A stretch of DNA of 34,025 nucleotides from an uncultured Clostridia bacterium (lineage in GTDB: Bacteria > Bacillota_I > Bacilli_A > RF39 > UBA660): positions 1-34,025 of the forward strand of contig CAMVLU010000007.1 of the NCBI GenBank assembly GCA_947168405.1, in the 5' to 3' direction. The position numbers and the translations under genes were made by a program. Under the pieces are notes generated by a model. The model made no database searches and was not told the DNA's origin. It was given only the letters and a program-made list of their open reading frames with translations. The number at the start of each line of letters is the position of its first letter. Position 1 is the stretch's first letter. This document shows positions 1,467 to 34,025 of the stretch, in pieces.

Positions 1467-1643
1467 CAATATATCTTATATTTTAAAATTAATTTACTTT
1501 AATCAAAAAAATATTTAGCACTAATCTTTAGAAATATTTAATTGAATAATTGTATTTATTACTATGACATAATATATTCTTTAATTAAGAAATATATTGT
1601 TTTTTATAATTTATTATTTTATAATTATCTTAGGAGGAAAAAT

Positions 1644-2717
1644 ATGAAAGATATTAATGTTGTTCAAATTGGAACAGGAAAAATGAGTCGTTATACAATG
1701 CGATATTTACTTGAGAAGGGATGCAATTTAGTAGGTGCTTTTGATATTAATGAAAGCATCATTGGAAAAAGTGTTCATGATGTTTTTAATGAGGTTAATT
1801 CAAATATTATAATTTCTAATATTAATAAATTAGATACCAAATTAAAAGAATTAAAACCTGATATTGCTATTGTAACTACTATGAGTTTATTAAGTGATGT
1901 TGGTGATGTTTTAAAAATATGTGCTAGAAATGGTGTAAATGCTATTACAACATGTGAAGAAGCATTTGATTCTTATAACTCTAATCCAAAATTAACAAAA
2001 GAAATTGATGAACTTGCAAAACAAAATAATTGTACTATTACAGGATCTGGTTATCAAGATGTTTACTGGGGTAATTTAATTAGTATAATTGGAGGTTCAA
2101 CTTTTAAAATAACTGAAATTAAAGGAAGTAGTAGTTATAATGTCGAAGATTATGGTATAGCTCTTGCTAAAGCACATGGAGCTGGTTTAACACTTGATGA
2201 ATTTGATAAAGAAGTTGCAAGTGTTGATAAAATAAGTGATGAAGAAAGAAATAAAATTATAGAATCAGGTAAATATTTACCAAGTTATATGTGGAATGTA
2301 AATGGATGGTTAATTGATAAATTAGGTTTAACTTTGAAAAGACAAACTCAAAAAACAATACCTACTACCTATAAAGAAGATATTTATTCAGAAACTCTTG
2401 GAACTACTGTTAAAGCTGGAGATGCAACTGGTATGAGTGCCGTTGTAACAACTGAAACTAATGAAGGAATTACAATTACTTCAGAATGTATTGGAAAAGT
2501 TTATTCTAAAGAAGATTATGATAAAAATGTTTGGACAATAGTTGGAGAACCAAATACTACTGTTATAGTTGAAAGACCTGCAACAGTTGAACTTACATGT
2601 GCAACAATAGTTAATCGTATACCAGATGTAATTAATTCAAGAAGTGGTTTCGTTTTAACAAGTGAAATGCCTGAATTAACATATAAAATTAAACCATTAA
2701 AGGAGTATTTAAAATAA
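1644..2717 (+). CDS. DapB-like / 2,4-diaminopentanoate dehydrogenase-family NAD(P)-binding oxidoreductase
   Basis: Start revised from 1542 to ATG 1644, preceded by TAGGAGG. N-terminal Rossmann VVQIGTGKMSRYTMRYLLEKGCNLVGAFDIN; overall resembles the dihydrodipicolinate reductase-like amine dehydrogenase family. Confidence 0.65.
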   Translation: MKDINVVQIGTGKMSRYTMRYLLEKGCNLVGAFDINESIIGKSVHDVFNEVNSNIIISNINKLDTKLKELKPDIAIVTTMSLLSDVGDVLKICARNGVNAITTCEEAFDSYNSNPKLTKEIDELAKQNNCTITGSGYQDVYWGNLISIIGGSTFKITEIKGSSSYNVEDYGIALAKAHGAGLTLDEFDKEVASVDKISDEERNKIIESGKYLPSYMWNVNGWLIDKLGLTLKRQTQKTIPTTYKEDIYSETLGTTVKAGDATGMSAVVTTETNEGITITSECIGKVYSKEDYDKNVWTIVGEPNTTVIVERPATVELTCATIVNRIPDVINSRSGFVLTSEMPELTYKIKPLKEYLK

Positions 2718-3112
2718 TGGACGATTGTTTATTTTGTAAAATAATAAAAAAAGAAATACCTTCAGAAATAATATTTGAAGATGATAAAATAATGGTATTT
2801 TTAGATATTAATCCAACAACAAATGGAGATACCTTAATTGTTCCAAAAGAACACTTTGATACAATGTTTGATGTTCCAAGAGAACTACTTAATTATATGG
2901 AAGAATGTTATAAACACATATATGAAGTATATAAGAAAAAATTAAATTGTGATGGATTATCACTTACCACTAACTTTGGAATTGCTCAAGAAATAAAACA
3001 TTTTCATATGCATTTTATTCCAAGATATAAAAATGATGAAGTTAAATATTTATCAAATAAATCTATTTTAAAAAATTTAAAAGAAATACAAGATATAATA
3101 TTAAAGGACTAG
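2717..3112 (+). CDS. HIT family protein
   Basis: CLFCKIIKKEIPSEIIFEDD N-terminus and HFHMHFIP histidine triad; start overlaps the previous stop (TAATGG). Confidence 0.92.
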   Translation: MDDCLFCKIIKKEIPSEIIFEDDKIMVFLDINPTTNGDTLIVPKEHFDTMFDVPRELLNYMEECYKHIYEVYKKKLNCDGLSLTTNFGIAQEIKHFHMHFIPRYKNDEVKYLSNKSILKNLKEIQDIILKD

Positions 3113-3127
3113 TAACCTAGTCCTTTT
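3103..3127. terminator. Bidirectional terminator between convergent genes
   Basis: AAAGGACTAG-TAAC-CTAGTCCTTTT lies between the HIT gene (+) and the pilin-like gene (-). Confidence 0.8.
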
Positions 3128-3533
3128 AACATCCTTCAGTTTTATAATGTATATTTCCAGCATTATCTTTACAAATAACACATGATTTATAATTTAAAGT
3201 AAAATTAACACCTTTATCCATAGTTCTTGAAACAATAACGTAACTAGAACTACAATCCCCTCCTTTTGGATCTTCAAATTCATCAATATAATTACCTTTT
3301 AATAATTCTGTATAAGTAATACTTTTGTTACCATTTACAGCTGGTAAGTGAGATGTATTAGCTATAAAATAATTTTCTGTTCCTCCCTTAAGGGAAGTTT
3401 CTAGATTTTGATATACTCCTTTTTTACCACTTTCAACAACTCTATTAACAGAAATAACAGCCAACGTAGAAACTATAGCAAGTACAACAATAACAGCTAA
3501 CAATTCAGCTAATGTAAAACCTTTTTTATTCAT
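3126..3533 (-). CDS. Type IV pilin-like / pseudopilin with prepilin N-terminal methylation motif
   Basis: MNKKGFTLAELLAVIVVLAIVSTLAVISV class III prepilin signal; Cys residues near the C-terminus. Confidence 0.85.
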   Translation of the reverse strand: MNKKGFTLAELLAVIVVLAIVSTLAVISVNRVVESGKKGVYQNLETSLKGGTENYFIANTSHLPAVNGNKSITYTELLKGNYIDEFEDPKGGDCSSSYVIVSRTMDKGVNFTLNYKSCVICKDNAGNIHYKTEGC

Positions 3534-3604
3534 ATTTTACTCACCTCATATCTATACTAATAATATCATAAAATTAAAATTTTTTAAATAATTTATTATA
3601 TATT

Positions 3605-6082
3605 TTATTTTAAATTCAATTTTTTTAATAATGATTTTCTTATTATATCTACTATTATTATAGAACTTGATAAAAGAATTATAATAAATAATTCTAAAGA
3701 TGTTAAACCATATGTTCTAAATATATCTCCTCCATAATAAATTAAATATATTTGAACTATAATTATAAAAGTTATTATTATCATAAATACTTTATTTTTA
3801 AATATATTAGAAAAAATATTTATACGATATGTTCTAGCATTAAAAGAATTAAATATACCTAAAAAGATAAATAAAGCAAAATAAGCTGTCATTAAATATT
3901 TATTATTCTCACCTATTCTAAATATTGTTTTAATAATAGGTAATTTTAAAAATAAAATACACATTATTGATGAATACAAAGATGTTATTATTATTTCATT
4001 ATACATATAACTATTCATTATTTTTTCATTTTTATTTTTTGGCGGTTCTTCCATATATTCTAAGAGTGCTGGTTCATAAGAAAAAGCAATTGCCGAAAAT
4101 GTATCCATTATCATATTAAGCCATAACATTTGAACTATTGTAATTGGAGATGAAAAACCAATAAAAGGACCAATTATTGATAATATTAAAGCACACATAT
4201 TAACACTTAATTGATAAATAATAAATTTTCTTATACTTTTAAATATTGTCCTACCATAAAGAATTGCTTTAGAAATAGATAATATATTATCATCAAGTAT
4301 TATAATATCACTTGCTTCTTTAGCAACTTCTGTTCCTGAACCCATAGCAAATCCAACATTAGATTGTTTTAAAGCTGGTGCATCATTTACACCATCTCCT
4401 GTCATTCCAACAACTAAATTCATATCTTCAATTACTTTTACTAACCGGCTTTTATCTTCAGGAAGAGCCCTTGATATTACTTTAATATTTTTTATTTTAT
4501 TCTTTAACTCTTTATCGCTTAACTTATTTAATTCTAAACTATCAATGACTAAATCATTTTTATTATTAATAATTCCTACTTCACTTGCAATATTATAAGC
4601 TGTTTCTTTTGAGTCTCCAGTTATCATAATAATATCAATACCAGCTTTTTTAATTAAATCTATTCCAGTATATGCCTCATCTCTTATTTCATCTTTTAAA
4701 TAAATAAAACCTAATAATACATAGTTATTATTTTTTTTATACGTTAAAGTTATAACTCTAATTCCTTTATTATTAATATAAATTTTATTACATTTAGGAA
4801 GTAATACTTCTAATGCTCCTTTATAATAAGTTATATTATCAATAGTTATAATACTATATTTTATTTTACTATTAAAGTGAATTTTATTTTTAACATCTTT
4901 ATTTTTTTTATGATTTCCAATAAATCTTAGTATTGCTTGATCAGTTATATTACCACCAAGTATATCATTATCACTAAAAAAACTATCATTGTTGTAAACA
5001 ATAGAATTGCAAAATAAGTTATTGTTGATTATTTCTTGCTTATTTAAAGATTTAAAATTACTTGTTAAAACATCTATTACTTCTAGTTTTCCTTTCGTAA
5101 TAGTTCCTGTTTTATCAGTTAGTAATATATTAATATTACCAGCAGTCTCTATTCCTACTAATTTTCTAACTAATACTTTATCTTTTAACATTTTCTTCAT
5201 ATTACTAGAAAGTACCAAAGTTATCATCATAGGAAGTCCTTCTGGAACAGCAACAACTATTATCGTAACACTTAAAGTTAAAGCATATATTAAATAATTA
5301 ATCATAAGAGGAATGTTACAAATTGTATTCTTAATTAAATTAATATCATAATGATTACTAATGACTATTTTAGAAAATAAATAAGCAATAGTAACTAAAA
5401 AAGCTCCTATATAACCTATTCTACTTATTACTTTAGCTAAATCTATTAATCTACTCTTTAAAGGACTAATTGGCTCTTTATTGTGTAATCCCATTGCTAT
5501 TTTACCATACATAGTATTGTTACCAACACTCATTACTTTCATTTTACCATATCCAAAGTAGACAGTTGTTCCTCGATATAATTTATTATTCTTATAAATA
5601 TTCTTTTTAGATTCTTTACTCTCGCCATTTAAAATAGATTCATCAACACTTAATTCTCCTTCAATTAGTATCCCATCTGCACCTATTTTATCACCTGATT
5701 CAAGTATTATAATATCATTTACAACTATATCATTTATAAATATTTCTTTAATAACATTGTTTCTTAAAACTTTAATTTTAATATTATCATTAACACTTTC
5801 TAATTTTTCAAATGCTTTATTACTTCCATACTCTGATATAGATGATATAAAAGTTGATAATAAAATAGCAATTATTATTCCAAGTGTTTCAAAAAAATCA
5901 AAATCTTTAAATAAAAAAACAATCTTAATTGCTAAAGCAACTAAAAGAATTTTAATCATTGGATCTCCAAATGATTCTATTAATAAATTTATAAAACTAT
6001 TTTGTTTTTTACTTATTATTTCATTAGTTCCATATTTTTTTCTAAATTCTATTACTTCTATATCACTTAGTCCTTTATTCAT
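3605..6082 (-). CDS. P-type cation-transporting ATPase (Ca2+ ATPase type)
   Basis: DKTGTITKGK phosphorylation motif, VPEGLPM, TGDSKETAYNIA, MTGDGVNDAPALKQSNVGFAMG. Confidence 0.93.
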   Translation of the reverse strand: MNKGLSDIEVIEFRKKYGTNEIISKKQNSFINLLIESFGDPMIKILLVALAIKIVFLFKDFDFFETLGIIIAILLSTFISSISEYGSNKAFEKLESVNDNIKIKVLRNNVIKEIFINDIVVNDIIILESGDKIGADGILIEGELSVDESILNGESKESKKNIYKNNKLYRGTTVYFGYGKMKVMSVGNNTMYGKIAMGLHNKEPISPLKSRLIDLAKVISRIGYIGAFLVTIAYLFSKIVISNHYDINLIKNTICNIPLMINYLIYALTLSVTIIVVAVPEGLPMMITLVLSSNMKKMLKDKVLVRKLVGIETAGNINILLTDKTGTITKGKLEVIDVLTSNFKSLNKQEIINNNLFCNSIVYNNDSFFSDNDILGGNITDQAILRFIGNHKKNKDVKNKIHFNSKIKYSIITIDNITYYKGALEVLLPKCNKIYINNKGIRVITLTYKKNNNYVLLGFIYLKDEIRDEAYTGIDLIKKAGIDIIMITGDSKETAYNIASEVGIINNKNDLVIDSLELNKLSDKELKNKIKNIKVISRALPEDKSRLVKVIEDMNLVVGMTGDGVNDAPALKQSNVGFAMGSGTEVAKEASDIIILDDNILSISKAILYGRTIFKSIRKFIIYQLSVNMCALILSIIGPFIGFSSPITIVQMLWLNMIMDTFSAIAFSYEPALLEYMEEPPKNKNEKIMNSYMYNEIIITSLYSSIMCILFLKLPIIKTIFRIGENNKYLMTAYFALFIFLGIFNSFNARTYRINIFSNIFKNKVFMIIITFIIIVQIYLIYYGGDIFRTYGLTSLELFIIILLSSSIIIVDIIRKSLLKKLNLK

Positions 6083-6163
6083 AAATCCTCCAGATAATTA
6101 TATGAACAATGGTAAAAAAAAAGAAACACAATATCATTTTAATTTTTTAAAATAATTATAAAA

Positions 6164-6187
6164 AAAAATATTGTAAATCAATATTTC
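6164..6187 (-). terminator. Terminator downstream of 63-aa ORF
   Basis: Minus strand ATATTG-ATTTA-CAATAT followed by a long T run, overlapping the TGA stop. Confidence 0.65.
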
Positions 6188-6369
6188 TTTTTTATAAAAT
6201 TTAATTTTTTTACTTTTTCTTCTTCTGGATTTCTTTTATTCCAAAAATCTTGTAAAATCATTTGTTGCACTTCTGGGTCTAATTTATTAAATTCTTCCAT
6301 TGTTATATTGTATGAACATAATGTTCTTCTGTTAATAATTTGCTTTATTGTGTATAATACCTCAAACAT
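6178..6369 (-). CDS. Small hypothetical protein (63 aa)
   Basis: ATG preceded by AGGGGGGG; directly downstream of prs on the same strand; terminator follows. Confidence 0.6.
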   Translation of the reverse strand: MFEVLYTIKQIINRRTLCSYNITMEEFNKLDPEVQQMILQDFWNKRNPEEEKVKKLNFIKKKY

Positions 6370-6380
6370 ATAATCCCCCC

Positions 6381-7457
6381 CTAATTTTTTGCAAAATCTT
6401 CTAATACTTTACTTGTTGCAGATAATATTGGAGAAACTGATCCTCCTATATGGAATGTATATATTATCTTAGCTAAATACTCTGAACAATCACCTATCTC
6501 TAACCATTCTTTATCTTTGGCTTCATCTAATATATACGATAAGTTAGTTGTAAATATCTTGGTAAATAATCCTTCTTTATAAGCTTTTTCAAATACTTCT
6601 ATTCCTTTTGTAAACATTACATAAGCTGAAAACATATAAATTCTTTTAGCACCTCTATTTTTTAATTCACGTGCAACATCTAACATTGATTCTCCACTGG
6701 CAATCATATCATCAACTATAATAATATCTTTACCAGCTACATCTTTTCCTATATATTCATGTTCAAGAATAGGATTTTTACCATCCACTACATGATATAA
6801 ATCACGATGTTTTTCAAAATGTCCTCCAAGTTCACATCCTAACATATTAGCATAGAATCTTGTCCTTTTTAAAGCTCCATTATCAGGTGATACAGCAAGT
6901 AAATTATCTTTTGTTACATCTTCTGTGGTTACAAATTTTTCAAGTATTATATTAGTTGGATAAAAATTATCAAATGATGAAGATGGTATAGCATTTTGAA
7001 CATTAGAATCATGTACATCAAAAGTAATTATGTTTTTTACACCTTGATGAATAAATTCTTGAAGTGCTACTGCACAGTCAAGGGACTCTCTTCCATCTCT
7101 TTTATGTTGACGTGATGCATATAAAAATGGCATTACTAAATTTACTCTTTCAGCATTATTTCTAATAGCACATAAAGTTCTAATTACATCTACATAATGA
7201 TCATCAGGACTTTTATGATTAATATAATTATACATTTTATAAGTTATTGAATGATTCATAGGATCTGTTAAAATAAATAAATCTTTTTTTCTAACACTTT
7301 CTTTTATTACAACTTTTCCTTCTCCATTATTAAATTTGACTTCTTCAACAGGAATTATTAAATCTTCTGTTTCACCCATTAATTCTTTTAAATGAATGTT
7401 AACTTTTTCACCTAATTCCTTACAATTTTCCATTACAACTAATCTTAAATTATCCAT
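6381..7457 (-). CDS. prs: Ribose-phosphate pyrophosphokinase
   Basis: FDVHDSNVQNAIP, IIIVDDMIASGESMLDVARELKNRGAKRIY PRPP-binding loop. Confidence 0.88.
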   Translation of the reverse strand: MDNLRLVVMENCKELGEKVNIHLKELMGETEDLIIPVEEVKFNNGEGKVVIKESVRKKDLFILTDPMNHSITYKMYNYINHKSPDDHYVDVIRTLCAIRNNAERVNLVMPFLYASRQHKRDGRESLDCAVALQEFIHQGVKNIITFDVHDSNVQNAIPSSSFDNFYPTNIILEKFVTTEDVTKDNLLAVSPDNGALKRTRFYANMLGCELGGHFEKHRDLYHVVDGKNPILEHEYIGKDVAGKDIIIVDDMIASGESMLDVARELKNRGAKRIYMFSAYVMFTKGIEVFEKAYKEGLFTKIFTTNLSYILDEAKDKEWLEIGDCSEYLAKIIYTFHIGGSVSPILSATSKVLEDFAKN

Positions 7458-7527
7458 ACTACTACTCCTTATCCTTATATATTTTATCTCATTCTATAAT
7501 AAAAATCAATTATTTTAAAAGAAAAAA

Positions 7528-8499
7528 CTAAAGTAAATCATTAGCTTTTTCTTTAAATTCATCTATAAGCATATTTTTTAACTCATCAGATACATTAATA
7601 TTATTTAATATATTTAATGTTATAACAACTAAATCATGTAAATTAAATGGAAATACATTAAATAATTTACAATATTCATTTAATAAATCTGTATCAAGTG
7701 AAGTCATATCTATTGTTGTAAATGTTAATAATACATTATCTTTAAATAAATCATAAACAAAATGATTTTCTAAAGAATCATAAATATTAAAATAATTTTG
7801 ATAAGTTATAGGAAATTCTAAAATAATATTGTTTTCTTTAACTATCTCTAATAAAATATCATCTGGTTTAATCATTACATTATAAATTATTTTATATGCA
7901 TTAGCAAAAATATCTTTATCTTGAGAAGTTATTTTACTATCTAAAACAATAGTATATTTTATATCATCTTTAACAAACTTATCAAATAAAGCTTTATAAG
8001 TTTCAAAATTATCTAATTTATTCTTTTTAAAATATACACCACTTATTCCTTTATTATAATATTTATATAATATATTAAGAGTATTATACATATCTTCTTT
8101 AGATATATTAGAATCTATTTCTAACACAATATTTAAATTAATTTTTTCATTCTTTATAGTATTTAAACATATTTCTAATACTTTTTCTTTTCCTAAATTA
8201 CCTAAAAAAGTATGTAAATTAATAAATAATTCTCCATATAAAATATTATCACTTTTTAATTTATTAATTAAATCTATTAAAGCAATTTCTATATTATTAT
8301 AACTATTTAATAAACTTCTAGTTAACTTTTTAACATTGTTATAATCTTTTAAACTTTCAAAATCAACAATATCTTCTAATTCTTCTCTTGTAGTATTATC
8401 TTTAGTTAATTTTTGAATGGTATCAATAGGAATAGATCCTAAAAAGTCAATATGCATATCAACTTTAGGCATTTCTTTTAAACTTTCAAATAACGTCAA
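7528..8499 (-). CDS. Adenosine deaminase-fold protein, apparently degenerate
   Basis: PKVDMHIDFLGSI aligns with the ADA motif PKxELHxHLxGS; C-terminal TTIDMTSLDTDLLNEY resembles TDDPxxFxTxLxxEY. Several catalytic motifs are missing. Confidence 0.6.
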   Translation of the reverse strand: MTLFESLKEMPKVDMHIDFLGSIPIDTIQKLTKDNTTREELEDIVDFESLKDYNNVKKLTRSLLNSYNNIEIALIDLINKLKSDNILYGELFINLHTFLGNLGKEKVLEICLNTIKNEKINLNIVLEIDSNISKEDMYNTLNILYKYYNKGISGVYFKKNKLDNFETYKALFDKFVKDDIKYTIVLDSKITSQDKDIFANAYKIIYNVMIKPDDILLEIVKENNIILEFPITYQNYFNIYDSLENHFVYDLFKDNVLLTFTTIDMTSLDTDLLNEYCKLFNVFPFNLHDLVVITLNILNNINVSDELKNMLIDEFKEKANDLL

Positions 8500-8676
8500 A
8501 ATATCACGTCCTTCATAAGTATTATATTATAATTAATAAATAAAAGCAAGTTTGAAAATATATAATTAACCTTATCAGCATATTATAACTTTTTAAAATT
8601 TATATTTAGAGATTAAATAATATGAGTATATTCCTAAAATATTTCTTAACATTTTACAAAAATGTTACATATCAAC

Positions 8677-8705
8677 TTGATTATAAATTTCAAATATGAT
8701 ACTAT
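8677..8705 (+). promoter_or_regulatory. Predicted promoter of small toxin-like transcript
   Basis: TTGATT (8677-8682), 17-nt spacer, TACTAT (8700-8705) with extended -10 TGA; predicted start near G8712. Confidence 0.65.
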
Positions 8706-8776
8706 ATATATGAACACTTAATTAGTTGGGTGATTAATTGCCATACCTTATCTTTAAAAGAAAGGGGGCGATTGTG

Positions 8777-8860
8777 ATGAATAAGAAAGATTTCTTAATT
8801 GCGTCTTTGATTATTCTAAACTTCCTTTTAATTATACTACTTTTTGTAGTATTAATATAA
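8777..8860 (+). CDS. 27-aa hydrophobic peptide, candidate type I toxin
   Basis: MNKKDFLIASLIILNFLLIILLFVVLI*, preceded by the purine-rich SD AAAGGGGG (8761-8768). Absent from the ORF track because of its length. GTG at 8774 is an in-frame alternative start. Confidence 0.65.
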   Translation: MNKKDFLIASLIILNFLLIILLFVVLI

Positions 8861-8868
8861 AATGAAAA

Positions 8869-8900
8869 TCACCTAACAAATCAAACAATGTGTTAGGTGA
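8869..8900 (-). terminator. Hairpin, probable terminator of antisense RNA
   Basis: TCACCTAACA ... TGTTAGGTGA 10-bp arms; T-rich tract follows only on the minus strand. Confidence 0.65.
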
Positions 8901-8922
8901 AAACATAAAATTATATTATGGC

Positions 8923-8958
8923 AACACTCAACATGCGAAATTAAGTGTTCCTTTTTTT
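8923..8958 (+). terminator. Terminator of toxin-like mRNA
   Basis: AACACT-(15 nt)-AGTGTT then CCTTTTTTT. Confidence 0.6.
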
Positions 8959-8989
8959 ATTATATGCAAGACGACTTGCTTACATACTA

Positions 8990-9018
8990 ATAATAACACA
9001 AATAGTCACAAAAGTCAA
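8990..9018 (-). promoter_or_regulatory. Predicted antisense RNA promoter
   Basis: Minus strand TTGACT (9018-9013), 17-nt spacer, TATTAT (8995-8990), TGT extended -10. Confidence 0.65.
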
Positions 9019-9061
9019 AATAAATTTGATACGTAAATTAATTTTAAATAAAAGTTAAAAA

Positions 9062-9700
9062 CTAATTAGCACATTTACGTAATTTAGTAATAGCCTCTTG
9101 ATAATCATCAGAATTTAAAATAGTAGACCCCGAAACTAATATATCGGCATTTTTTAAATCTTTAGCATTTAAGAAATTTATTCCTCCATCAACATTAATA
9201 AGAATTTTTTTATTTTGCTTTTTTAAATATGCTTTTAATTTCTTAACTTTATTTACTGTTTCAGGAATAAACTCTTGTCCAGGAAGACCTGGAACAACAC
9301 TCATGATTAAAATTAAATCAATTTTATCAAAATATGGATACACGCTTTCTATGTCTTGATCTGGATTAATTGCAATTCCCACCTTAATTCCATATTTTTT
9401 ATATTTATCAATTACTTTATCTATATCTTCCTTAATATTAAGGTGAATATTGATGTATTCAACATTTAAAGTTACTAAAGTTTGTAAATATTTTAAAGGC
9501 TTTTCAACCATTAAATGAACATCTAATCTTTTTCTTGTAAAATTAGTAATACATGATAAATCACTTATAGACATTGTTTTCTTTTTTACATATTTACCAT
9601 CCATTACATCTACATGAATAAAATCTACGTCTGTAACATTTAATTTTTCAAGAACTTTAGGAATATTTTTACTTCCTAAAAATGATGCACCTATTTTCAT
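9062..9700 (-). CDS. rpe: Ribulose-phosphate 3-epimerase
   Basis: VDFIHVDVMDGKYV, LDVHLMVEKP, VDGGINFLNAKDL, LVSGSTI. Internal ATG at 9700 preferred: GAGGTGG SD. Confidence 0.9.
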   Translation of the reverse strand: MKIGASFLGSKNIPKVLEKLNVTDVDFIHVDVMDGKYVKKKTMSISDLSCITNFTRKRLDVHLMVEKPLKYLQTLVTLNVEYINIHLNIKEDIDKVIDKYKKYGIKVGIAINPDQDIESVYPYFDKIDLILIMSVVPGLPGQEFIPETVNKVKKLKAYLKKQNKKILINVDGGINFLNAKDLKNADILVSGSTILNSDDYQEAITKLRKCAN

Positions 9701-9701
9701 A

Positions 9702-10547
9702 TTACCACCTCTTACTTTCAAATTCTTGAATAAAACTTACATAATTATCTAATCTACTTTTTAATATTTTACTATCAAGAACCGCCTTTTTTACATTACA
9801 TTCTGATTCTTTAAAATGAAAGCAATCTTTGTATTCACAAGGATATTTTTTAAACTCTATAAAAGCATCTCTTACATTTTCTTTAGTATATGCTAAAAAA
9901 GATAAAGCTGAAAATCCTGGAGTATCTAAAACTTTAATTTTATCTTTAATTATTATTTCAACATGCCTTGTTGTATGTTTACCACGACCAAGTGCTATAG
10001 ATACTTCACCAGTTTCTAAATTTAAATCTTTAAATAATTTATTAAGCATTGTTGATTTACCTGCACCTGTTTGTCCCATAAAAACACTTATATTATTTTC
10101 CAATTCTTTTTTAATTTTATCTATTTCAGTATTATATAAAACTTTATATCCAATAGATTCATAATAACTTAAATTATTTTTTATTAATTTAAAATCTTCA
10201 TTATCAACCAAATCTTTTTTTGTTATTAATATAATTGGTTTAATATGATTTATTTCAAGTTCTACTACTAATTTATCCAATAAATTAGTACTAAAATCAG
10301 GATTTTTACAACTTGTTACAATTATTCCTTTTGTTATATTAGCAACATGTGGTCTTAATATTTCATTTTGTCTTGGAAAAATTTCTTCAATTGTCTTATT
10401 ATTTTTATCTATGAAAACAAAATCCCCTACTAAGGGAATTTGTTTATCAAGTCGCATTTTACCACGACATTTGCATTCAATTTTTTCATTATTTACAAGA
10501 ACTGTAAATATATCACTTATATTTTTTATTACTAATCCTTTTTCCAT
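9702..10547 (-). CDS. rsgA: Ribosome small subunit-dependent GTPase A
   Basis: Circularly permuted GTPase: ITKKDLVD, GQTGAGKSTMLN, LDTPGF; Cys/His zinc motif CEYKDCFHFKESEC. Confidence 0.93.
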   Translation of the reverse strand: MEKGLVIKNISDIFTVLVNNEKIECKCRGKMRLDKQIPLVGDFVFIDKNNKTIEEIFPRQNEILRPHVANITKGIIVTSCKNPDFSTNLLDKLVVELEINHIKPIILITKKDLVDNEDFKLIKNNLSYYESIGYKVLYNTEIDKIKKELENNISVFMGQTGAGKSTMLNKLFKDLNLETGEVSIALGRGKHTTRHVEIIIKDKIKVLDTPGFSALSFLAYTKENVRDAFIEFKKYPCEYKDCFHFKESECNVKKAVLDSKILKSRLDNYVSFIQEFESKRW

Positions 10548-12319
10548 TAATTATTTTCATCTTTCTTTTCTTCTGTTTTAGTATCAGTAGTATCAGTTTT
10601 AGTTTCTTCCTTTTTAGTCTCTTCTTCATATTTAACAGCATATACTATTTTTAAGTTTGCACCTTTTACAATAGGAGTTCCAGCTGCTCTACTTTGGCTA
10701 ATAATAGTATTTGGAGTAAATTCATTTGTTGGTTTAGAAACAAATGAAACGATTATTCCATATTTATCACAGAAAGCTTGTATTTCATCAATAGACCATT
10801 GTTCTGTAACAAAATCAGGATATTCATCAACAACATTTGGAATATATAATGTTACTTTTTGTCCTTTAGATACTTTAGTTCCTTTTTCTGGATCTGTTTT
10901 AATAATTTCTTCTTCTCCATATTCAGTATCATCTTCTGGATCAACTTTTTCAAGGACCACTTCTAACTCATATTTAGATTCCAAAATTGCTTTTATTTCT
11001 TTATAATTTTTACCTTTAAAATCTTCCATTTCATAAACTGTATCACCTAAAGATTCAAATAAAGTAATACTGGTTCCTTTTTTAACTTTTCTTCCTATAG
11101 CAGGGGAAGTTTTTGAAATAAGTCCGGCTTCAATTTTTTCATCACTTACTTGTTCAACTTTTAATTCAACTTCAAAACCAGCTTTCTTTAATGTATCTTC
11201 AGCTTTTTGAACTGTCATACCAGCAACATTTGGTATAACTACATCAGGAACTTCAGAGAATATTGGATAAATTACAAATATTCCTACTAGTATTAATACA
11301 ACAAAGATAAATATTCCAGATAAAATCCAAATCCAAGTATTTTTCTTTTCTTCTCTTAAATCACCAAGTTCATCTTCTAGTTCTTTAATTTCTTCTTCTT
11401 TTTCTTCTAATAAAACTGGTTTTTTATCTTCAGAATCACCTTCATGTTCAGGAAATAAGAAAGTAACTTTTCCTTCATTTAATCTATCTTCATTTAAACA
11501 AGTTAGTAAATCATCATGCATTCTTGAAACTGTTTCATATCTATTTTTAGGATTTTTAGCAGTTGCTCTTAATATGATATTTTCAACACTTTGAGGAATA
11601 GAATCATTTTTCTCTCTTATACTAGGAAAATCACTTTTCATATGTTTAAGAGCTATTTCAACAGCATTTTCTCCTTTAAAAGGAAGACTACCCGTTAATA
11701 ATTCATAGAATAATATTCCCATAGAATAAATATCACTTTTAATAGTTGCTCCTTTACCACTTGCTTGTTCTGGAGGTAAATAATGAACTGACCCCATAAC
11801 AGAATTAGTTTGTGTTAATTGAGTGCTGTTAAGTGCCATAGCAATACCAAAGTCTGTTATTTTTATTTCTCCATTATCTTTTATTAAGATATTTTGAGGT
11901 TTTAAATCACGATGAATAATATATGAGTCATGTGCTTCTTTAATACCATCTGTTATTTGTAACATGATATCGATTGCTTCTGATAAAGATATACTTCCAC
12001 GTTTTTTAATTAATTGTTTAAGAGTTTGCCCTGGAACATATTCCATAACTATATAATAAGTTCCATTATCTTCACCAACATCATACATTTCAACAATATT
12101 AGGATGAGATAAACTAGATGCACTTAAAGCTTCTCTTTGAAAACGTCTTACAAATTTCTCATCTCCTGCAAGATCTCCTCTTAATACCTTAATTGCAACA
12201 TCACGATCAAGAATAATATCATGAGCAAGGTAAACATTAGCCATTCCACCTTCTCCAATACTCTTTATTATTTCATAACGTTCGTTAATCTTCTGCCCCT
12301 TCGTTATCACTTTCAACAC
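10547..12319 (-). CDS. prkC: Serine/threonine protein kinase with PASTA repeats
   Basis: IGEGGMANVYLAHD, IIHRDLKPQNILI, DFGIAMAL kinase motifs; TM segment; repeated PASTA-like segments (VPNVAGMTVQKAEDTLKKAGFEV). Confidence 0.95.
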   Translation of the reverse strand: MLKVITKGQKINERYEIIKSIGEGGMANVYLAHDIILDRDVAIKVLRGDLAGDEKFVRRFQREALSASSLSHPNIVEMYDVGEDNGTYYIVMEYVPGQTLKQLIKKRGSISLSEAIDIMLQITDGIKEAHDSYIIHRDLKPQNILIKDNGEIKITDFGIAMALNSTQLTQTNSVMGSVHYLPPEQASGKGATIKSDIYSMGILFYELLTGSLPFKGENAVEIALKHMKSDFPSIREKNDSIPQSVENIILRATAKNPKNRYETVSRMHDDLLTCLNEDRLNEGKVTFLFPEHEGDSEDKKPVLLEEKEEEIKELEDELGDLREEKKNTWIWILSGIFIFVVLILVGIFVIYPIFSEVPDVVIPNVAGMTVQKAEDTLKKAGFEVELKVEQVSDEKIEAGLISKTSPAIGRKVKKGTSITLFESLGDTVYEMEDFKGKNYKEIKAILESKYELEVVLEKVDPEDDTEYGEEEIIKTDPEKGTKVSKGQKVTLYIPNVVDEYPDFVTEQWSIDEIQAFCDKYGIIVSFVSKPTNEFTPNTIISQSRAAGTPIVKGANLKIVYAVKYEEETKKEETKTDTTDTKTEEKKDENN

Positions 12320-13055
12320 CTTCTTTTTCTTCTATTTCTAAGTAAGCAACTGATATATTATCAGTTCCTCCTTCATTATTAGCTTTTTGTATTAAACTAA
12401 CGATTTTTTCTTCTATCTCCATGTTACTATTTATTACATCTTCTATTTTACTCGAATCTACTAAATTCGTCAACCCATCACTTGCAAGAAGAATAGAAGT
12501 TACATCTAAATCACAATCAAATACATCAGGAGTTACTTCGTCACTTGCTCCAAGTGCTTTCATTAAAACATTTTTTCGTGGATGGTCTTTAGCTTCTTCT
12601 TCAGTAATTTCGCCAGCTTCAACTAATAAATTAACTAAAGAATGATCTACTGTTACTTTATGTAATTTATTATTTTTTATAACAAATCCACTTGAATCTC
12701 CAACATTTCCAAATAATATATATTCATTTGTAATAATTGCAAGAACTAAAGTTGTTCCCATCCCTACACATTCTTTATTTTCTGCTTCATATTTAAAAAT
12801 TTCCGTATTAACACCTTTAACAACATCATTTATCCAAACAATAGCATCTTCTTTTGATAAATCATAAAAAGTTTCCGTAAATTGTTTACTTAAATAACTA
12901 ATAGCAATTGATGATGCAACTTCTCCAGCTCTATGTCCTCCCATTCCATCTGCAACAGCCATTAAATAATCACCTTTATGATTTTTTAAAATAATAACAC
13001 TATCTTCATTATGATCTCTTACTTTTCCAACATCTGTTAAATAAAAACTCTTCAT
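12285..13055 (-). CDS. prpC: PP2C-family protein phosphatase
   Basis: TDVGKVRDHNEDS, MAVADGMGGHRAGEVAS, LLASDGLTNLV; gene overlap with prkC. Confidence 0.95.
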   Translation of the reverse strand: MKSFYLTDVGKVRDHNEDSVIILKNHKGDYLMAVADGMGGHRAGEVASSIAISYLSKQFTETFYDLSKEDAIVWINDVVKGVNTEIFKYEAENKECVGMGTTLVLAIITNEYILFGNVGDSSGFVIKNNKLHKVTVDHSLVNLLVEAGEITEEEAKDHPRKNVLMKALGASDEVTPDVFDCDLDVTSILLASDGLTNLVDSSKIEDVINSNMEIEEKIVSLIQKANNEGGTDNISVAYLEIEEKEGVESDNEGAED

Positions 13056-27439: not shown

Positions 27440-27472
27440 TTCTTTTTTTTGCAAAAAAATAAGAATTATTTT
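27438..27472. terminator. Bidirectional terminator between convergent genes
   Basis: AATTCTTTTTTTT-GC-AAAAAAATAAGAATT. Confidence 0.75.
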
Positions 27473-29001
27473 GTAATTCTTACTTTAACCCCTCTTATAT
27501 TAAAATACAATGTTACATTATCTACATTAATATTTGATGGTACTTCAAGAAGTGCTGTATTTTCTTCGTAGTTATCAGGTGTAATATCATTTATATCCAT
27601 AGCACTTGCAAAATTATCACTTTCAATATTTAAATAATTAAATATATTTTTTGGTGTTCCATCTCCATATTTTACTTTTAATATTTTTTTTACTCCTTTA
27701 GGAACAATAGTAACTTTTTCATCAGAGCAATTATCTTCCGTTATACATTTAGAATATACATATTCTTCTATATCTTTAAATTCTATACTATTAATAGAAA
27801 AACTACCATTTTTATAAAGAGTATCTTTTAAAGGAATACTACTTCCCATTTGATATGTTTTTAAATCTTTATTTTTAAATGTATATGGTTTTAACGAAAC
27901 ATCACGATAATATAAAATTGCTTCACCATTTACAACTTTTTTACCTCTATAAAGTTGTAAAATATAATCATTAGATTTCTTTTTGATTTCAAATATTAAT
28001 AGATATTCACCTTTACCATTTTTACCAATAACTTGTTTTTTAAAATAATTTCCTAAATCAATAAATTTACTTGCTTGAGTAGCCTTTGGATAAAAATAAT
28101 CATCCCCTATTTTGATTCTAGTATTTTCCATAGATATTTTTAAAGATTCTTCACTTTTATTTTCTATTTCAAAGGAAACTATTAAATAATTTTTATTATT
28201 TTTTATAACATTGCCAAATAAATCTTTATCGGTTATATATGAACCTAATACTTTATAATTAATAGAATCAATTTGAACAACATTACCTTCATTATAAACT
28301 CTTGCAACAACTAATTTATTAATGGCAATGATAGATCCTGTTATCAATGTAACTATAATTAAAAAAACAATTAATATATATGAATTTTCTTTTACATAAT
28401 ACATTAAATTTCTTTTTCTTCTTCTAACAAAGTTACCAACATTTTCTAAATCAAGTCCACTTCCAACTTCAATTTCTTCTCTATCTTCTTCAGTTATATT
28501 TAATTCTTTTAAATCTTTTTCAAAATTAAATTTTTTAACATTAAATCCAAATCCTCTTACAAAAGCAATTGTTAAAAAGAAATAATTTATATAATAAATA
28601 ACCATTGCAATATCCCTATAAATAACTATAGATTGATTAGATAAAGAATTATATTCTAAACTATTAAATGCACTTAACAGCACAATATATACAATAAACG
28701 AAATTGCATAAAATATTATTCCTAATAAGTAATATAATACTTTCTTTTCTTTTTGTTTCATCAATAAATATATTAACAAGAAAATTCCCATCAATAAAAT
28801 AGATACTATTATCATAAATGGATGAACATATGAAAGAGCCATATTTTCAATATAATTATAAGTTCCACTTATTAAATAATCTCCAAAAAACACATAAATA
28901 TTTCTTGATTTGATTAACAAATAAATTGCTATAACAAAAATAGTAATATGAATTACTTTAAAATATTTAATCAAAAATGCATAAGGTTTTCTAATTATCA
29001 T
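27466..29001 (-). CDS. Polytopic membrane protein with DUF4352-like extracytoplasmic region
   Basis: Multiple TM segments; YKVLGSYITDKDLFGNVIKNNKNYLIVSFEIENKSEESLKISMENTRIKIGDDYFYP. Confidence 0.6.
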   Translation of the reverse strand: MIIRKPYAFLIKYFKVIHITIFVIAIYLLIKSRNIYVFFGDYLISGTYNYIENMALSYVHPFMIIVSILLMGIFLLIYLLMKQKEKKVLYYLLGIIFYAISFIVYIVLLSAFNSLEYNSLSNQSIVIYRDIAMVIYYINYFFLTIAFVRGFGFNVKKFNFEKDLKELNITEEDREEIEVGSGLDLENVGNFVRRRKRNLMYYVKENSYILIVFLIIVTLITGSIIAINKLVVARVYNEGNVVQIDSINYKVLGSYITDKDLFGNVIKNNKNYLIVSFEIENKSEESLKISMENTRIKIGDDYFYPKATQASKFIDLGNYFKKQVIGKNGKGEYLLIFEIKKKSNDYILQLYRGKKVVNGEAILYYRDVSLKPYTFKNKDLKTYQMGSSIPLKDTLYKNGSFSINSIEFKDIEEYVYSKCITEDNCSDEKVTIVPKGVKKILKVKYGDGTPKNIFNYLNIESDNFASAMDINDITPDNYEENTALLEVPSNINVDNVTLYFNIRGVKVRITK

Positions 29002-29166: not shown

Positions 29167-30417
29167 TTATCTTCTTATTTTTTTTATTTTAATTTCTTTT
29201 AAATTATATTCTTCTTCTTTTTCTTTAGCATATTCAAGCATCTCCAATAATTCTTCATGGCTATAACTACTACATTCATACGCACGATTTGCTTCGTCTG
29301 TTGTAATCCATAAATTATTAGAAAAATTATCTTTTAAATTATATAGAGGAGTATTAGGAATAATAGTTAAATGATAACTATAAAATTCAGTTGGATTTAA
29401 AGAACATACAAAATCAATACTGTTTTTCAATCCTTCAAAATCATCTCCTGGTAATCCTGTAATTAATTCAGCTCTCCATGGAATATTATTTTCGGATAAT
29501 TTAGGTAATTCATTTATAACCGAATACATATTATTTGATCTTAACCATTGAGGAACATTTATATTAGTGGTTTGAATACCTATTCTAATTTGACTAATAT
29601 TCGCATTTTTTAATAATTCTATCATTTCTGAATCAATAAATTCAGGTCGAAAATACAGTCCAATTTTTGTATTTGGAGCATATTTATTAAAATAACTTAA
29701 TACTACTTTTGCTCTTTTTTTACTTCCAGCAAAATTAGGATCTATTACAAATATTTGTTTAAAACCAAGCCTACCAATATTTTTTATTTCTTGTTCAACT
29801 ATATCTAAAGGAATATATGCAACTTTATGTCTTGTTTTATGACCACAATAGCCACAATTATATGCACATCCCCTACAAGTTTCATACCATAAAAAATCTC
29901 TATCATCAATGTAAGTATTTGTAAACAAAGGATTTTTTATTTGAATAGCATCTTCTACTTTTTCATGATATACATTTTCTTTGTTAAAAATATTTATATT
30001 ATTGTTAAAAAAATTTTTATCTTTCTTTCCATCTTTAATGTAATCACATAATCTTTTTAACGCTTCTTCTCCTTCTCCAATTATAAAATATTCTTTATCA
30101 AATTGATTTATATCCATAACTTCTACTTCAGGACCACCTATAACAATTTCTAGATTAGGATTTATTTCTTTTAATTTTTTATCTATATCAATAGTTGCAT
30201 GATTAACCCAAGAAAAATTTGATATACCAACTAAATCATAATTATTATTTATAACATTATAAACATCAAAATTTTCATATTCTTTTAAATCAATTGGTAT
30301 TATATCAACATTAATTTCATAACTTTTCAAATATTCTGCAAGTCTTAATACCGATAAAGAATATCTATTAGGATATTCAATCTGTCTACTATAAAAACTT
30401 ATTAAAGCGACTTTCAT
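29167..30417 (-). CDS. B12-binding-domain radical SAM protein
   Basis: N-terminal B12-binding-like fold (YDLVGISNFSWVNHATIDIDKKLKEINPNLEIVIGGPEVEV) followed by CAYNCGYC (CxxxCxxC). Confidence 0.85.
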   Translation of the reverse strand: MKVALISFYSRQIEYPNRYSLSVLRLAEYLKSYEINVDIIPIDLKEYENFDVYNVINNNYDLVGISNFSWVNHATIDIDKKLKEINPNLEIVIGGPEVEVMDINQFDKEYFIIGEGEEALKRLCDYIKDGKKDKNFFNNNINIFNKENVYHEKVEDAIQIKNPLFTNTYIDDRDFLWYETCRGCAYNCGYCGHKTRHKVAYIPLDIVEQEIKNIGRLGFKQIFVIDPNFAGSKKRAKVVLSYFNKYAPNTKIGLYFRPEFIDSEMIELLKNANISQIRIGIQTTNINVPQWLRSNNMYSVINELPKLSENNIPWRAELITGLPGDDFEGLKNSIDFVCSLNPTEFYSYHLTIIPNTPLYNLKDNFSNNLWITTDEANRAYECSSYSHEELLEMLEYAKEKEEEYNLKEIKIKKIRR

Positions 30418-30424
30418 ATTTCAC

Positions 30425-31723
30425 CTATAAAGAATGATATACATTCACCTTTCTCATATCTATTTTTTTTGTTTTCATTTCTTCTTTATACTCTTTTGGA
30501 CACAATGGATCTATATTTTTTATTTCACCATATTCAACTTTTTTTCTAACTTGACATCCTCCACGGCATGAAGAATGAATTTTACAATCTGAACAATCAT
30601 AACTACTAATTAATTTAATATAATCTCTTAATTCCTTTGAATGAAGTAAATAATCTAAAACACTAGAATAATCATAAATATTTCCAAGTAAAGTGTGATT
30701 CATAAGACAAGGAGTAATTCTTCCATCTGGATTAATTGTTAATAATTCTTGAGCACCTATACATCCCTTATTTTCTTCTATTCCAATTATAAAATCATAT
30801 AAAGAAGGATTGGATGCATTTGTTATTTTTAAATTATTGTCTTTTTCATTATCAATTACACCTTGAATCATCATAATTGCTTTATAATATTCATCTTTAA
30901 TACTTCCGTAATATCCAAGTTCATGTTCTTCACATCTTTCAGGATTAGCAAATTTCAATATATCAATATTATGTAATTTAGAAAAATCAATTAATTTTTT
31001 TACTTCTTCCTTTGTTATATTTGGATAATAAACTGGTTTAAAACAGATATTTAAATTACTATTATTTTTTAATTTGTGACTATATAAATTTTTTAAACCT
31101 AATAAAGCTTGTTTATAACTACCATTTCCTCTTGTTTTATCATTTTGTTTTTCATCACAACTATCTAAACTAATACTAACAGAAAAAATATCATTCGTTG
31201 TTAATAACTCACATACTTTATCTGTTAAACAAGTACCATTTGTTGCTAATGATAAAACCATTCCTAAATTTCTTCCATATTCGATATAATTTTTTAATCC
31301 ATCATAGTCAATAGTTGGTTCTCCTCCAGCTAAATGAACTCTCATAATTCCTAATTTATAAAAATCATCAAATATTTTTCTTACCATACATTTTTCCATT
31401 ATTGTATTACCTAAATATTTTTTATTATAACAATAGGTACAATTTTTATTACATTTTGATGTATAATCAAAATAAGCTTCTAATGGTACAAATATATCTT
31501 TTCCATAAATAGTATTATCAATATATCTTATATTATATTTACTAAGTTGTAATTCATTATATTCTTTATTAAATTGGTCTTTTAACTTATTATAATTATT
31601 ATTACTGATACATTCTACCAAACAATTATATAATTCCCCTTCATATATTCTAAAATATGATTGCTTATCTGGAACAAATATTAATATTCCATAATTTTCC
31701 TTTCTAATAACTACTTCTTTCAT
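30425..31723 (-). CDS. Radical SAM/SPASM protein, candidate peptide maturase with RRE-like N-terminus
   Basis: CNKNCTYC (CxxxCxxC), VHLAGGEPTIDYDG, C-terminal CSDCKIHSSCRGGC SPASM-like Cys cluster; N-terminal IRKENYGILIFVPDKQSYFRIYEGELYNCLVE. Confidence 0.85.
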   Translation of the reverse strand: MKEVVIRKENYGILIFVPDKQSYFRIYEGELYNCLVECISNNNYNKLKDQFNKEYNELQLSKYNIRYIDNTIYGKDIFVPLEAYFDYTSKCNKNCTYCYNKKYLGNTIMEKCMVRKIFDDFYKLGIMRVHLAGGEPTIDYDGLKNYIEYGRNLGMVLSLATNGTCLTDKVCELLTTNDIFSVSISLDSCDEKQNDKTRGNGSYKQALLGLKNLYSHKLKNNSNLNICFKPVYYPNITKEEVKKLIDFSKLHNIDILKFANPERCEEHELGYYGSIKDEYYKAIMMIQGVIDNEKDNNLKITNASNPSLYDFIIGIEENKGCIGAQELLTINPDGRITPCLMNHTLLGNIYDYSSVLDYLLHSKELRDYIKLISSYDCSDCKIHSSCRGGCQVRKKVEYGEIKNIDPLCPKEYKEEMKTKKIDMRKVNVYHSL

Positions 31724-33080
31724 TTTTCATTCCTTTCAATACTTTAATATATTTTTTATGTATTTCTTTATCACTTTCATCACAATCGTTAGTTAATAAT
31801 CTTTTTTCAAAAAATGCAAGTCCATATAACAACCTATAAATAATTAAATTACGTATAATATCTTTATCACATTTATCAAATAAATTAGCATATTTTAAAT
31901 AATCTTCATAATTAGAATTTGGACTTTCTAATAAAAAACATGAGCATATTAACGTTGCTAATTGTAAATCTTTAGGATATTTTTTCATATTTTCAAAATC
32001 AATAATATGGATTTCATCATCTTCAATTAATAAATTAGAACGATGTAAATCATTATGAATTAACAGTCTATCTACTTTTTTTAAATAATTATTAAATTTT
32101 TCATCATTAATTAACTCTTGTAAATCCTCTTTGGCAAAATCAGTAAAAAGATTTTTTTGACAATTAAGTAAATCTTTTTTTATATTTCCATCAGGCGAAA
32201 AATCATTATCATATTTTTTTAATAATTTATTTAAAGTAGATACTTCTTTGAAAATATGAACTATATCATTATCTTTTAAATCTCCAAACTTATGTATACC
32301 ATCTAAATATTTCATTACTTTAGTTTGACCATACTCTGTATTATCCATTTGAATTACTGATGGAACATTCATTTTTTTATTTAAATAATTTAAAACGTCC
32401 ATTTCTAAATAATCGCTTAATTTTAAATGATTATTTTTAAATTTTACAATATATTTATTATCAAATGTTTCTATCATTTTAACTATAGCTGTTTTAGCAA
32501 TTGGAAAATCTACTATATTTAATTTACTCATTGGATTAATTATTTCAAAAATACTACCATTAGGAATATCAAATTGTGTATTTCTATATCGATTATTTAA
32601 TAAATTATACATACATCTGATAAAAGCTGCATGTGAAACGACAATATCATTTTGATTATCACATTGTAAATATTTTGATAAAAATAAAATTGCTCTTGCT
32701 TGATTTTCTTGCCATGTACTAGCATTTAAAATATCATTATAATCTCCTCTTTTAGAATATATTTCATATTCCTTGGGATATGCATATTTACAATAATCTT
32801 TAGTATTACCTTCAAGTATTCCAGCACTTACTTCTCTTAAATTAGGATCTATTTTAATTTTTTTATAGAAATTAATCTTATTCTTAATAATTTCAGCAGT
32901 TTCCATAGCTCGTTGTAAATTACTAGTATAAATATTCGTAATATTAATAAGTCTCGAAAAATCTTGATTTTTTAATTTTTCTATCCCATTTCTTGATAAT
33001 CCATAATTTTCATTACCTTGAATAACACCTATTTCATTTCCAATAGAAATACCATGTCTTACTAATGTTAATTTATTCAT
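31704..33080 (-). CDS. Histidine phosphatase domain fused to APH/choline kinase-like domain
   Basis: N-terminal LTLVRHGISIGNE ... YTSNLQRAMETAEII ... VVSHAAFIR; C-terminal LLIHNDLHRSNLLIEDDEIHIIDFENM. Confidence 0.88.
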   Translation of the reverse strand: MNKLTLVRHGISIGNEIGVIQGNENYGLSRNGIEKLKNQDFSRLINITNIYTSNLQRAMETAEIIKNKINFYKKIKIDPNLREVSAGILEGNTKDYCKYAYPKEYEIYSKRGDYNDILNASTWQENQARAILFLSKYLQCDNQNDIVVSHAAFIRCMYNLLNNRYRNTQFDIPNGSIFEIINPMSKLNIVDFPIAKTAIVKMIETFDNKYIVKFKNNHLKLSDYLEMDVLNYLNKKMNVPSVIQMDNTEYGQTKVMKYLDGIHKFGDLKDNDIVHIFKEVSTLNKLLKKYDNDFSPDGNIKKDLLNCQKNLFTDFAKEDLQELINDEKFNNYLKKVDRLLIHNDLHRSNLLIEDDEIHIIDFENMKKYPKDLQLATLICSCFLLESPNSNYEDYLKYANLFDKCDKDIIRNLIIYRLLYGLAFFEKRLLTNDCDESDKEIHKKYIKVLKGMKNERSSY

Positions 33081-33213
33081 AACCCCCCCTTAAAGAAAAA
33101 AGGCGATAATACTTTTCAATATTAACGCTTTTTATAGACAATAAAAGATAACTATTATTGATAATAATTAGAAAATATAATATAAATAATAAAAATTCTA
33201 AAAAATGTTTCAT
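33073..33213 (-). CDS. Unannotated 46-aa peptide, translationally coupled to the phosphatase-kinase gene
   Basis: AGGAGAATAATATG start; MKHFLEFLLFILYFLIIINNSYLLLSIKSVNIEKYYRLFSLRGGYE*; stop overlaps the downstream ATG (TATGAATAA). Confidence 0.65.
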   Translation of the reverse strand: MKHFLEFLLFILYFLIIINNSYLLLSIKSVNIEKYYRLFSLRGGYE

Positions 33214-33260
33214 ATTATTCTCCTATTTATTAATACTATATCTCGTAAATTCATTAACTA

Positions 33261-33290
33261 TATTAATAAAAATAGTTTTATTTGTCAATA
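33261..33290 (-). promoter_or_regulatory. Predicted promoter of peptide/phosphatase-kinase/radical SAM operon
   Basis: Minus strand TTGACA-17-TAATAT within TATTGACAAATAAAACTATTTTTATTAATATAG. Approximate coordinates. Confidence 0.65.
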
Positions 33291-33322: not shown

Positions 33323-33339
33323 ATCTACTGGTGATCAAT

Positions 33340-34025
33340 ATGTCTGTCCATATTAATCATGATAAAATTATTAATATAATTGAAAATGATTTAATGGTAT
33401 TTGATGAAAGAAATATATTAAATGAAATTAAAAATATTCCTAATACAATACCAAATAATTTAACACCACTAGAAAAAACTAGATATATTTATAAAAAATT
33501 AGGAAATTTATTTTGTTTTGATTATCGGACAAGATTTACTGATAATGTAACAGAAGCAATTACCAAACCACTTAATTATAATTATTATATTAATAACTTC
33601 GTATCATGTATTCCAATGGCAATTATATTAAATAAATTACTTAACAATATTAATGGAGTAAGTTCTATAATAATACCTAGACAAATTCCTAATTTAAGAG
33701 GAGCGGCTTTTCAAGAACAACATACTGCTAATGAAATAACAATCAATAATAAAAAATATTTAATAGATTTAGCACTTGATTTATATTTAATACAATCTAA
33801 TTGTCAAACTAAATATTTTGCTGCACAATCAGATAATAATAAATATCAAACCTTATCTAATAATAAATTAAAAGAAATCGATAAAAAATTAAATTTTAAT
33901 ACTAATTATTTAGATGATTCAATATTACAAATAAAAAAAAAATTAACAAAAATACAAAAAGCACATAATTATTTTAATACTATCATCTTAAATATAAATC
34001 TTCTTTATGAAAAATATCAAAGTCA
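33340..34025 (+). CDS. Transglutaminase-like cysteine protease-fold protein (3' truncated by window edge)
   Basis: Open frame to window end, not in ORF track. MSVHINHDKIINIIENDLMVFDERN...; ordered Cys/His/Asp pattern FVSCIPMAIILNKLL ... QEQHTANEITINNKKYLIDLALDLY. Confidence 0.6.
   Translation, partial: MSVHINHDKIINIIENDLMVFDERNILNEIKNIPNTIPNNLTPLEKTRYIYKKLGNLFCFDYRTRFTDNVTEAITKPLNYNYYINNFVSCIPMAIILNKLLNNINGVSSIIIPRQIPNLRGAAFQEQHTANEITINNKKYLIDLALDLYLIQSNCQTKYFAAQSDNNKYQTLSNNKLKEIDKKLNFNTNYLDDSILQIKKKLTKIQKAHNYFNTIILNINLLYEKYQS

Follow-up and report, generated by a model that had tools for sequence, protein, structure and literature searches.

This article concerns a tightly packed group of minus-strand genes from an uncultured Clostridia bacterium. 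The window, by which we mean the whole stretch of DNA analyzed, is a complete contig (C7) of 34,025 bp from a draft genome of 1.44 Mb in 127 contigs. Four open reading frames (ORFs) are packed into its positions 33213 to 29167: one of 46 amino acids (aa), followed by a histidine phosphatase-APH kinase fusion, a radical S-adenosylmethionine (SAM) protein with a SPASM domain, and a B12-binding radical SAM protein. The three enzyme genes probably form a genuine biosynthetic cassette that has not been described before. Its parts are all of known kinds; the combination of genes and the fusion are new as far as we found. It is the linkage of the genes, and not any chemistry, that supports the claim of a cassette.

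Organization and distribution of the cassette

The linkage recurs in another species of the genus, a metagenome-assembled genome from rabbit gut (G004), where the three enzyme genes are adjacent on a 4,680-bp contig (L005). An earlier note on this DNA had made its proposal depend on the neighborhood being conserved in some relative, and in G004 it is. The order is SPASM-fusion-B12 there and fusion-SPASM-B12 in the window. Adjacency has been kept while order has changed, at 37% to 50% protein identity, and this is strong evidence of a functional unit and of long-term selection for linkage. The features of the window cassette are as follows.

33260 to 33288, minus strand: promoter-like site TTGACA-17-TAATAT, supported by its position
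33073 to 33213, minus strand: 46-aa ORF with an AGGAG site, overlapping the start of the fusion gene; most likely a leader peptide, less likely a precursor
33096 to 33138, minus strand: leader hairpin followed by a T-run, inside the 3′ half of the 46-aa ORF, terminator- or attenuator-like (-9.4 kcal/mol, z -4.7)
31704 to 33080, minus strand: histidine phosphatase-APH kinase fusion, 458 aa (ORF and Pfam; 37% identity to the G004 fusion)
30425 to 31723, minus strand: radical SAM/SPASM protein, 432 aa (ORF and Pfam; 44% identity to the G004 counterpart)
29167 to 30417, minus strand: B12-binding radical SAM protein, 416 aa (ORF and Pfam; 50% identity to the G004 counterpart)

The single dense operon described earlier is upheld by the junctions, which in transcript order are -8 nucleotides (nt) between the 46-aa ORF and the fusion, -20 nt between the fusion and the SPASM gene, and +7 nt between the SPASM and B12 genes. 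In G004, the SPASM and fusion genes overlap, and only a few bases lie between the fusion and the B12 gene. Catalytic motifs are intact in all three enzymes. The promoter named in the earlier note is present as a site (33288 to 33260), but its weight as evidence did not stand: promoter-like sites of this general kind number 78 in DNA of 23.6% G+C, with 78.8 expected by chance, and because they occur at chance frequency the site by itself is weak evidence. Its counterpart in G004 is TTGACA-16-TAAAAT at positions 99-126 of L005.

Distribution is patchy. A search of 145 relatives with the SPASM protein returned a single genome besides the window's own, G004 (E 2.5e-109). Only 2 of 17 genomes of the genus carry the cassette, and the remaining 15 showed neither radical enzyme. 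At higher rank, 385 genomes from the order and 395 from the class yielded no further cassettes. When 84,980 species genomes were scanned for the fusion with an alignment as query, only G004 and one further genome of the genus (G016) emerged with full-length relatives; a scan with a single fusion sequence as query gave no matches. Distant or unsampled copies could escape, because the species scan works from seeds and only samples of the order and class were searched. Phage, viral, and plasmid collections and viral contigs held no cassette, the one SPASM match there being a generic radical SAM protein at 24% identity.

Could the three genes simply be chance neighbors with no common pathway? The flanking genes are not conserved beside the cassette, as such a view would have it. 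Against it stand the shuffled but unbroken adjacency in G004, the tight packing in both genomes, and the failure to find either radical enzyme in the remaining 15 genomes of the genus, and we give this explanation very little credence.

The three enzymes

The enzyme classes assigned earlier are confirmed by Pfam, which finds His_Phos_1 (2e-28) and APH (2e-9) within one reading frame, Radical_SAM with SPASM in the second protein, and Radical_SAM with a B12-binding domain in the third. None of the three enzymes reaches a cut-off among the curated NCBIfam families; as far as those cut-offs go, the radical SAM proteins match no housekeeping family, a match that would have counted against the earlier note. 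The domains are placed as follows.

32547 to 33071, minus strand: His_Phos_1 domain of the fusion, residues 4-178 (Pfam; RHG and SHA motifs intact)
31983 to 32459, minus strand: APH kinase domain of the fusion, residues 208-366 (Pfam; HNDLHRSN and DFE motifs intact)
31469 to 31723, minus strand: RRE-like N-terminal domain of the SPASM protein, residues 1-85 (AlphaFold topology; Foldseek top matches SuiB and SkfB)
30983 to 31462, minus strand: radical SAM core of the SPASM protein with CNKNCTYC (Pfam and motif)
30500 to 30763, minus strand: SPASM domain, seven-cysteine pattern CX12GX4C-CX2CX5CX3C-C (Pfam and motif)
30052 to 30357, minus strand: B12-binding domain, residues 21-122 (PF02310, 37.9 bits, above cut-off)
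29410 to 29886, minus strand: radical SAM core of the B12-binding protein with CAYNCGYC (Pfam and motif)

The SPASM domain scores 27.4 bits in Pfam against a cut-off of 21.5, and the window and G004 proteins both carry CX3CX2C and all seven SPASM cysteines, the marks of the SPASM class. The earlier note had proposed an N-terminus resembling the recognition element (RRE) of ribosomally synthesized and post-translationally modified peptide (RiPP) enzymes, and the structure model agrees: residues 1-70, mostly at a predicted local distance difference test score (pLDDT) of 67-80, are predicted to form three strands followed by two helices and then one more strand (E-E-E-H-H-E). The RRE of SkfB has the same order of elements (PMC6231123). 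In Foldseek, the top seven matches of the model are all RRE-bearing peptide maturases, led by SuiB, SkfB, and CteB, in alignments of 412-445 columns; the RRE-less MoaA and viperins align over ~310-330 columns or fewer. The model is structurally closest to RRE-bearing maturases, and a peptide substrate is therefore favored.

With SuiB (the streptide enzyme), SkfB, and CteB, the window protein shares the three-domain order, a predicted N-terminal bbb-helix-b domain, and the radical SAM core, with SPASM cysteines that are complete as in SuiB and CteB. It differs in having only ~16-18% identity to them in structural alignment and in the lack of any precursor found, while their systems are without the B12 radical SAM and phosphatase-kinase companions seen here. 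The closest curated NCBIfam models are PapB (NF047865; 89 bits against a cut-off of 340) for the window protein and the mycofactocin maturase (TIGR03962; 93 bits against 265) for that of G004. The PapB-family ranthipeptide and mycofactocin maturases are thus the best curated matches, yet they stay below their cut-offs, and no PapA-like or MftA-like peptide is seen alongside.

In the B12-binding protein, PF02310 and PF04055 both score above cut-off and the core has CX3CX2C, the combination expected of a B12-dependent radical SAM enzyme; a motif check did not find DxHxxG. Compared with the PDB by profile, the protein matched only two enzymes, CysS and TokK. Its likeness to these and to the PhpK family is one of architecture, B12-binding plus radical SAM. 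PhpK (TIGR04479) is the closest curated match, at 114.5 bits in the window and 91.9 bits in G004. The difference is plain, however, from the cut-off of 600 and from phosphonate pathway genes that were not found.

Both halves of the fusion carry the motifs of their class. Residues R8-H9 and H150, which characterize branch 1 histidine phosphatases, are invariant in the three relatives, and the HxDxxxxN and D(F)E metal-site motifs of an active APH-type kinase are found in the window (HNDLHRSN/DFE) and in G004 (HDDLHRAN/DFE). The G016 relative, at 31% identity, has lost the catalytic Asp of the kinase (HNKLDKNN). A profile of the kinase half gave no significant match in the PDB, and the structure model of the fusion is unusable (pLDDT 38). 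A known analogy is PFKFB, in which opposing kinase and histidine-phosphatase domains also share a single chain and which the window phosphatase half matches weakly; the window fusion, unlike PFKFB, has the domain order reversed and an APH rather than a P-loop kinase fold.

The G016 gene has CobD/HisC-like aminotransferase, pyridoxal phosphate-dependent decarboxylase, nucleotidyltransferase, type I phosphodiesterase, and AMP-binding protein genes as neighbors. Together they make up a compact metabolite-type cluster around the phosphatase with its degenerate kinase half, at ~2885-12584 of locus L006 (G016:C2:94000-112000); its nucleotidyltransferase is a minimal one, its AMP-binding protein has 955 aa, and it also includes a LysR regulator. 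A cluster of this kind is unusual in a 1.2-Mb genome.

The leader region and the likely substrate

We read the three genes as an accessory, patchily distributed tailoring cassette that is probably exchanged laterally and would act on a peptide, a reading to which we give somewhat less than an even chance. The RRE-like domain of the SPASM protein would bind a small peptide by its leader, and the enzyme, with two auxiliary Fe-S clusters, would make a radical cross-link, an epimerization, or something similar. The B12 enzyme may methylate an unactivated position. In a putative phosphate cycle, the APH half of the fusion would phosphorylate the substrate or product and the histidine-phosphatase half would take the phosphate off again; the phosphate could be a protecting or self-resistance group, or an obligatory intermediate. 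APH-like kinases do work in RiPP pathways: CaoK of class V lanthipeptide biosynthesis phosphorylates Ser/Thr of the CaoA precursor (PMC9486802). The window kinase is likened to it by class, not by sequence, and differs in being fused to a histidine phosphatase and in having no HopA1-like lyase nearby.

Transcription would begin upstream of the 46-aa ORF, which had been put forward as the peptide to be modified. The ORF may be translated: its length is unusual for the composition (P ~0.013 per ATG when intergenic sequence is shuffled), and just upstream of it lies a good AGGAG site. As the substrate it did not hold up: it has no homologue in the genus genomes, G004 included (best other match E 0.03), an unrelated 20-aa ORF occupies the corresponding place in G004, and the hairpin falls in its 3′ half. 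The G004 leader also has a hairpin with a T-run (L005 203-238, z -5.6), the strongest T-run hairpin on that contig, and in both genomes the hairpin comes after the promoter-like site and ahead of the enzyme genes. We read the 46-aa ORF as a leader or attenuator because it is not conserved and both genomes have a stable leader hairpin; ORF and hairpin together suggest leader-peptide attenuation of the enzyme genes, or translational coupling, rather than a precursor. Rfam gave no riboswitch in the leader.

Several observations weigh against a peptide tailoring cassette. A RiPP cluster would have a conserved precursor beside its modifying enzymes, and none was found here: no other ORF of at least 20 aa on the cassette strand suits the role, and G004 offers its 20-aa ORF alone, with no space downstream. 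The precursor may be encoded outside the cassette, in trans. The RRE-like domain went undetected by Pfam and by PDB sequence profile, and the SPASM model comes from a two-sequence alignment with a mean pLDDT of 55. The window hairpin is of moderate strength among the T-run hairpins of the window. The cassette includes no protease or exporter gene, and in G016 the third fusion relative has small-molecule-type rather than RiPP genes as neighbors.

This last point leads to the alternative that deserves most attention, the tailoring of a small molecule derived from an amino acid or amino sugar, in which the kinase would protect or inactivate the intermediate, the radical enzymes epimerize or dehydrate and methylate it, and the phosphatase release the active product. 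Both the APH fold and histidine phosphatases are typical components of small-molecule pathways, and kinase/phosphatase pairs are used for self-protection in aminoglycoside pathways. The metabolite-type genes beside the only other fusion relative and the missing precursor fit this view. It has to account, however, for the SPASM protein resembling RRE-bearing peptide maturases along its full length in Foldseek, and the cassette has no scaffold-forming enzyme. The G016 neighborhood may reflect another use, because the kinase there lacks its catalytic Asp. We regard small-molecule tailoring as possible though doubtful. Improbable, in turn, is the version of the earlier note, a RiPP operon with the 46-aa peptide as precursor: the ORF is first in the operon, has a good ribosome-binding site, and is longer than chance, and many RiPP precursor genes stand before a leaky terminator. 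It is, however, unconserved, its hairpin lies within the coding sequence, it overlaps the next start codon, and a plain hydrophobic stretch makes up its N-terminal half.

Two further readings start from profile matches. A phosphonate or phosphinate pathway, with the B12 enzyme as a PhpK-like P-methylase, is suggested by PhpK being the best curated match in both species; the scores are far under the 600-bit cut-off, and we think this very improbable. Phosphoenolpyruvate mutase, the entry enzyme, does not exceed its cut-off in G000 or G004 (both incomplete drafts) or in G016, and the reading was rejected. The other is anti-phage defense, either viperin-like or as the PADLOC candidate PDC-M51, on the strength of PADLOC matches to PDC-M51A (~144-145 bits) and pVip (77 bits). 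Most PDC-M51A matches in the phylum, however, are ordinary open frames of ~540-570 codons scoring 110-166 bits, a range that includes the window score; the single strong member, with a score of 263, has unrelated genes around it; and PDC-M51B is absent from the genome. The NCBIfam viperin model gives 68.8 bits, short of its cut-off of 180, and viperins have no SPASM domain. Score background and cut-offs led us to set both forms aside, and of all the readings we hold defense to be the least credible.

To return to peptide tailoring, its fullest form would be a natural-product class not seen before, made by gut-type Bacilli with small genomes: paired SPASM and B12 enzymes and a fused kinase-phosphatase phosphate cycle would act on a peptide encoded outside the operon. 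We consider this unlikely as a whole. If the reading as a tailoring cassette is right, the tailoring repertoire of tiny-genome bacteria with few biosynthetic clusters would gain paired radical SAM enzymes together with a phosphatase-kinase fusion, in a compact three-gene system open to reconstitution. As the earlier note had held, no described pathway with this combination was found in the open-access literature searched.

Neighboring genes

A DUF4352 membrane protein gene (27466 to 29001, minus strand) lies next to the cassette. It is kept in 14 of 16 genus genomes and its upstream neighbors vary, which suggests frequent rearrangement. Among the relatives examined, the gene upstream of it is mostly a different one and in no case that of the window, so that no syntenic empty site was found and no insertion boundary was drawn.

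On the other side, cut by the contig end, is a divergent gene (33331 to 34023, plus strand) with no Pfam match and with relatives in G011 (46%, 364 aa) and four other genera. Its C..H..D residue pattern recalls transglutaminase-like proteins, to which it may be related. It was considered as a member of the cassette and rejected; none of its relatives is accompanied by the cassette, and no copy was found in G004. Directly 3′ of the G004 cassette is a Y_phosphatase3 tyrosine-phosphatase gene (L005 4247-4678), also cut by the contig end; none follows the window cassette.

The rest of the window is mostly housekeeping: RsgA, a PASTA kinase, a PP2C phosphatase, RlmN, DNA polymerase III delta, alanyl-tRNA synthetase, Cmk, and the CCA enzyme. 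A gene at 1542 to 2717 (plus strand) matches the C-terminal domain of 2,4-diaminopentanoate dehydrogenase and adjoins genes for a HIT protein and a sulfatase-fold protein.

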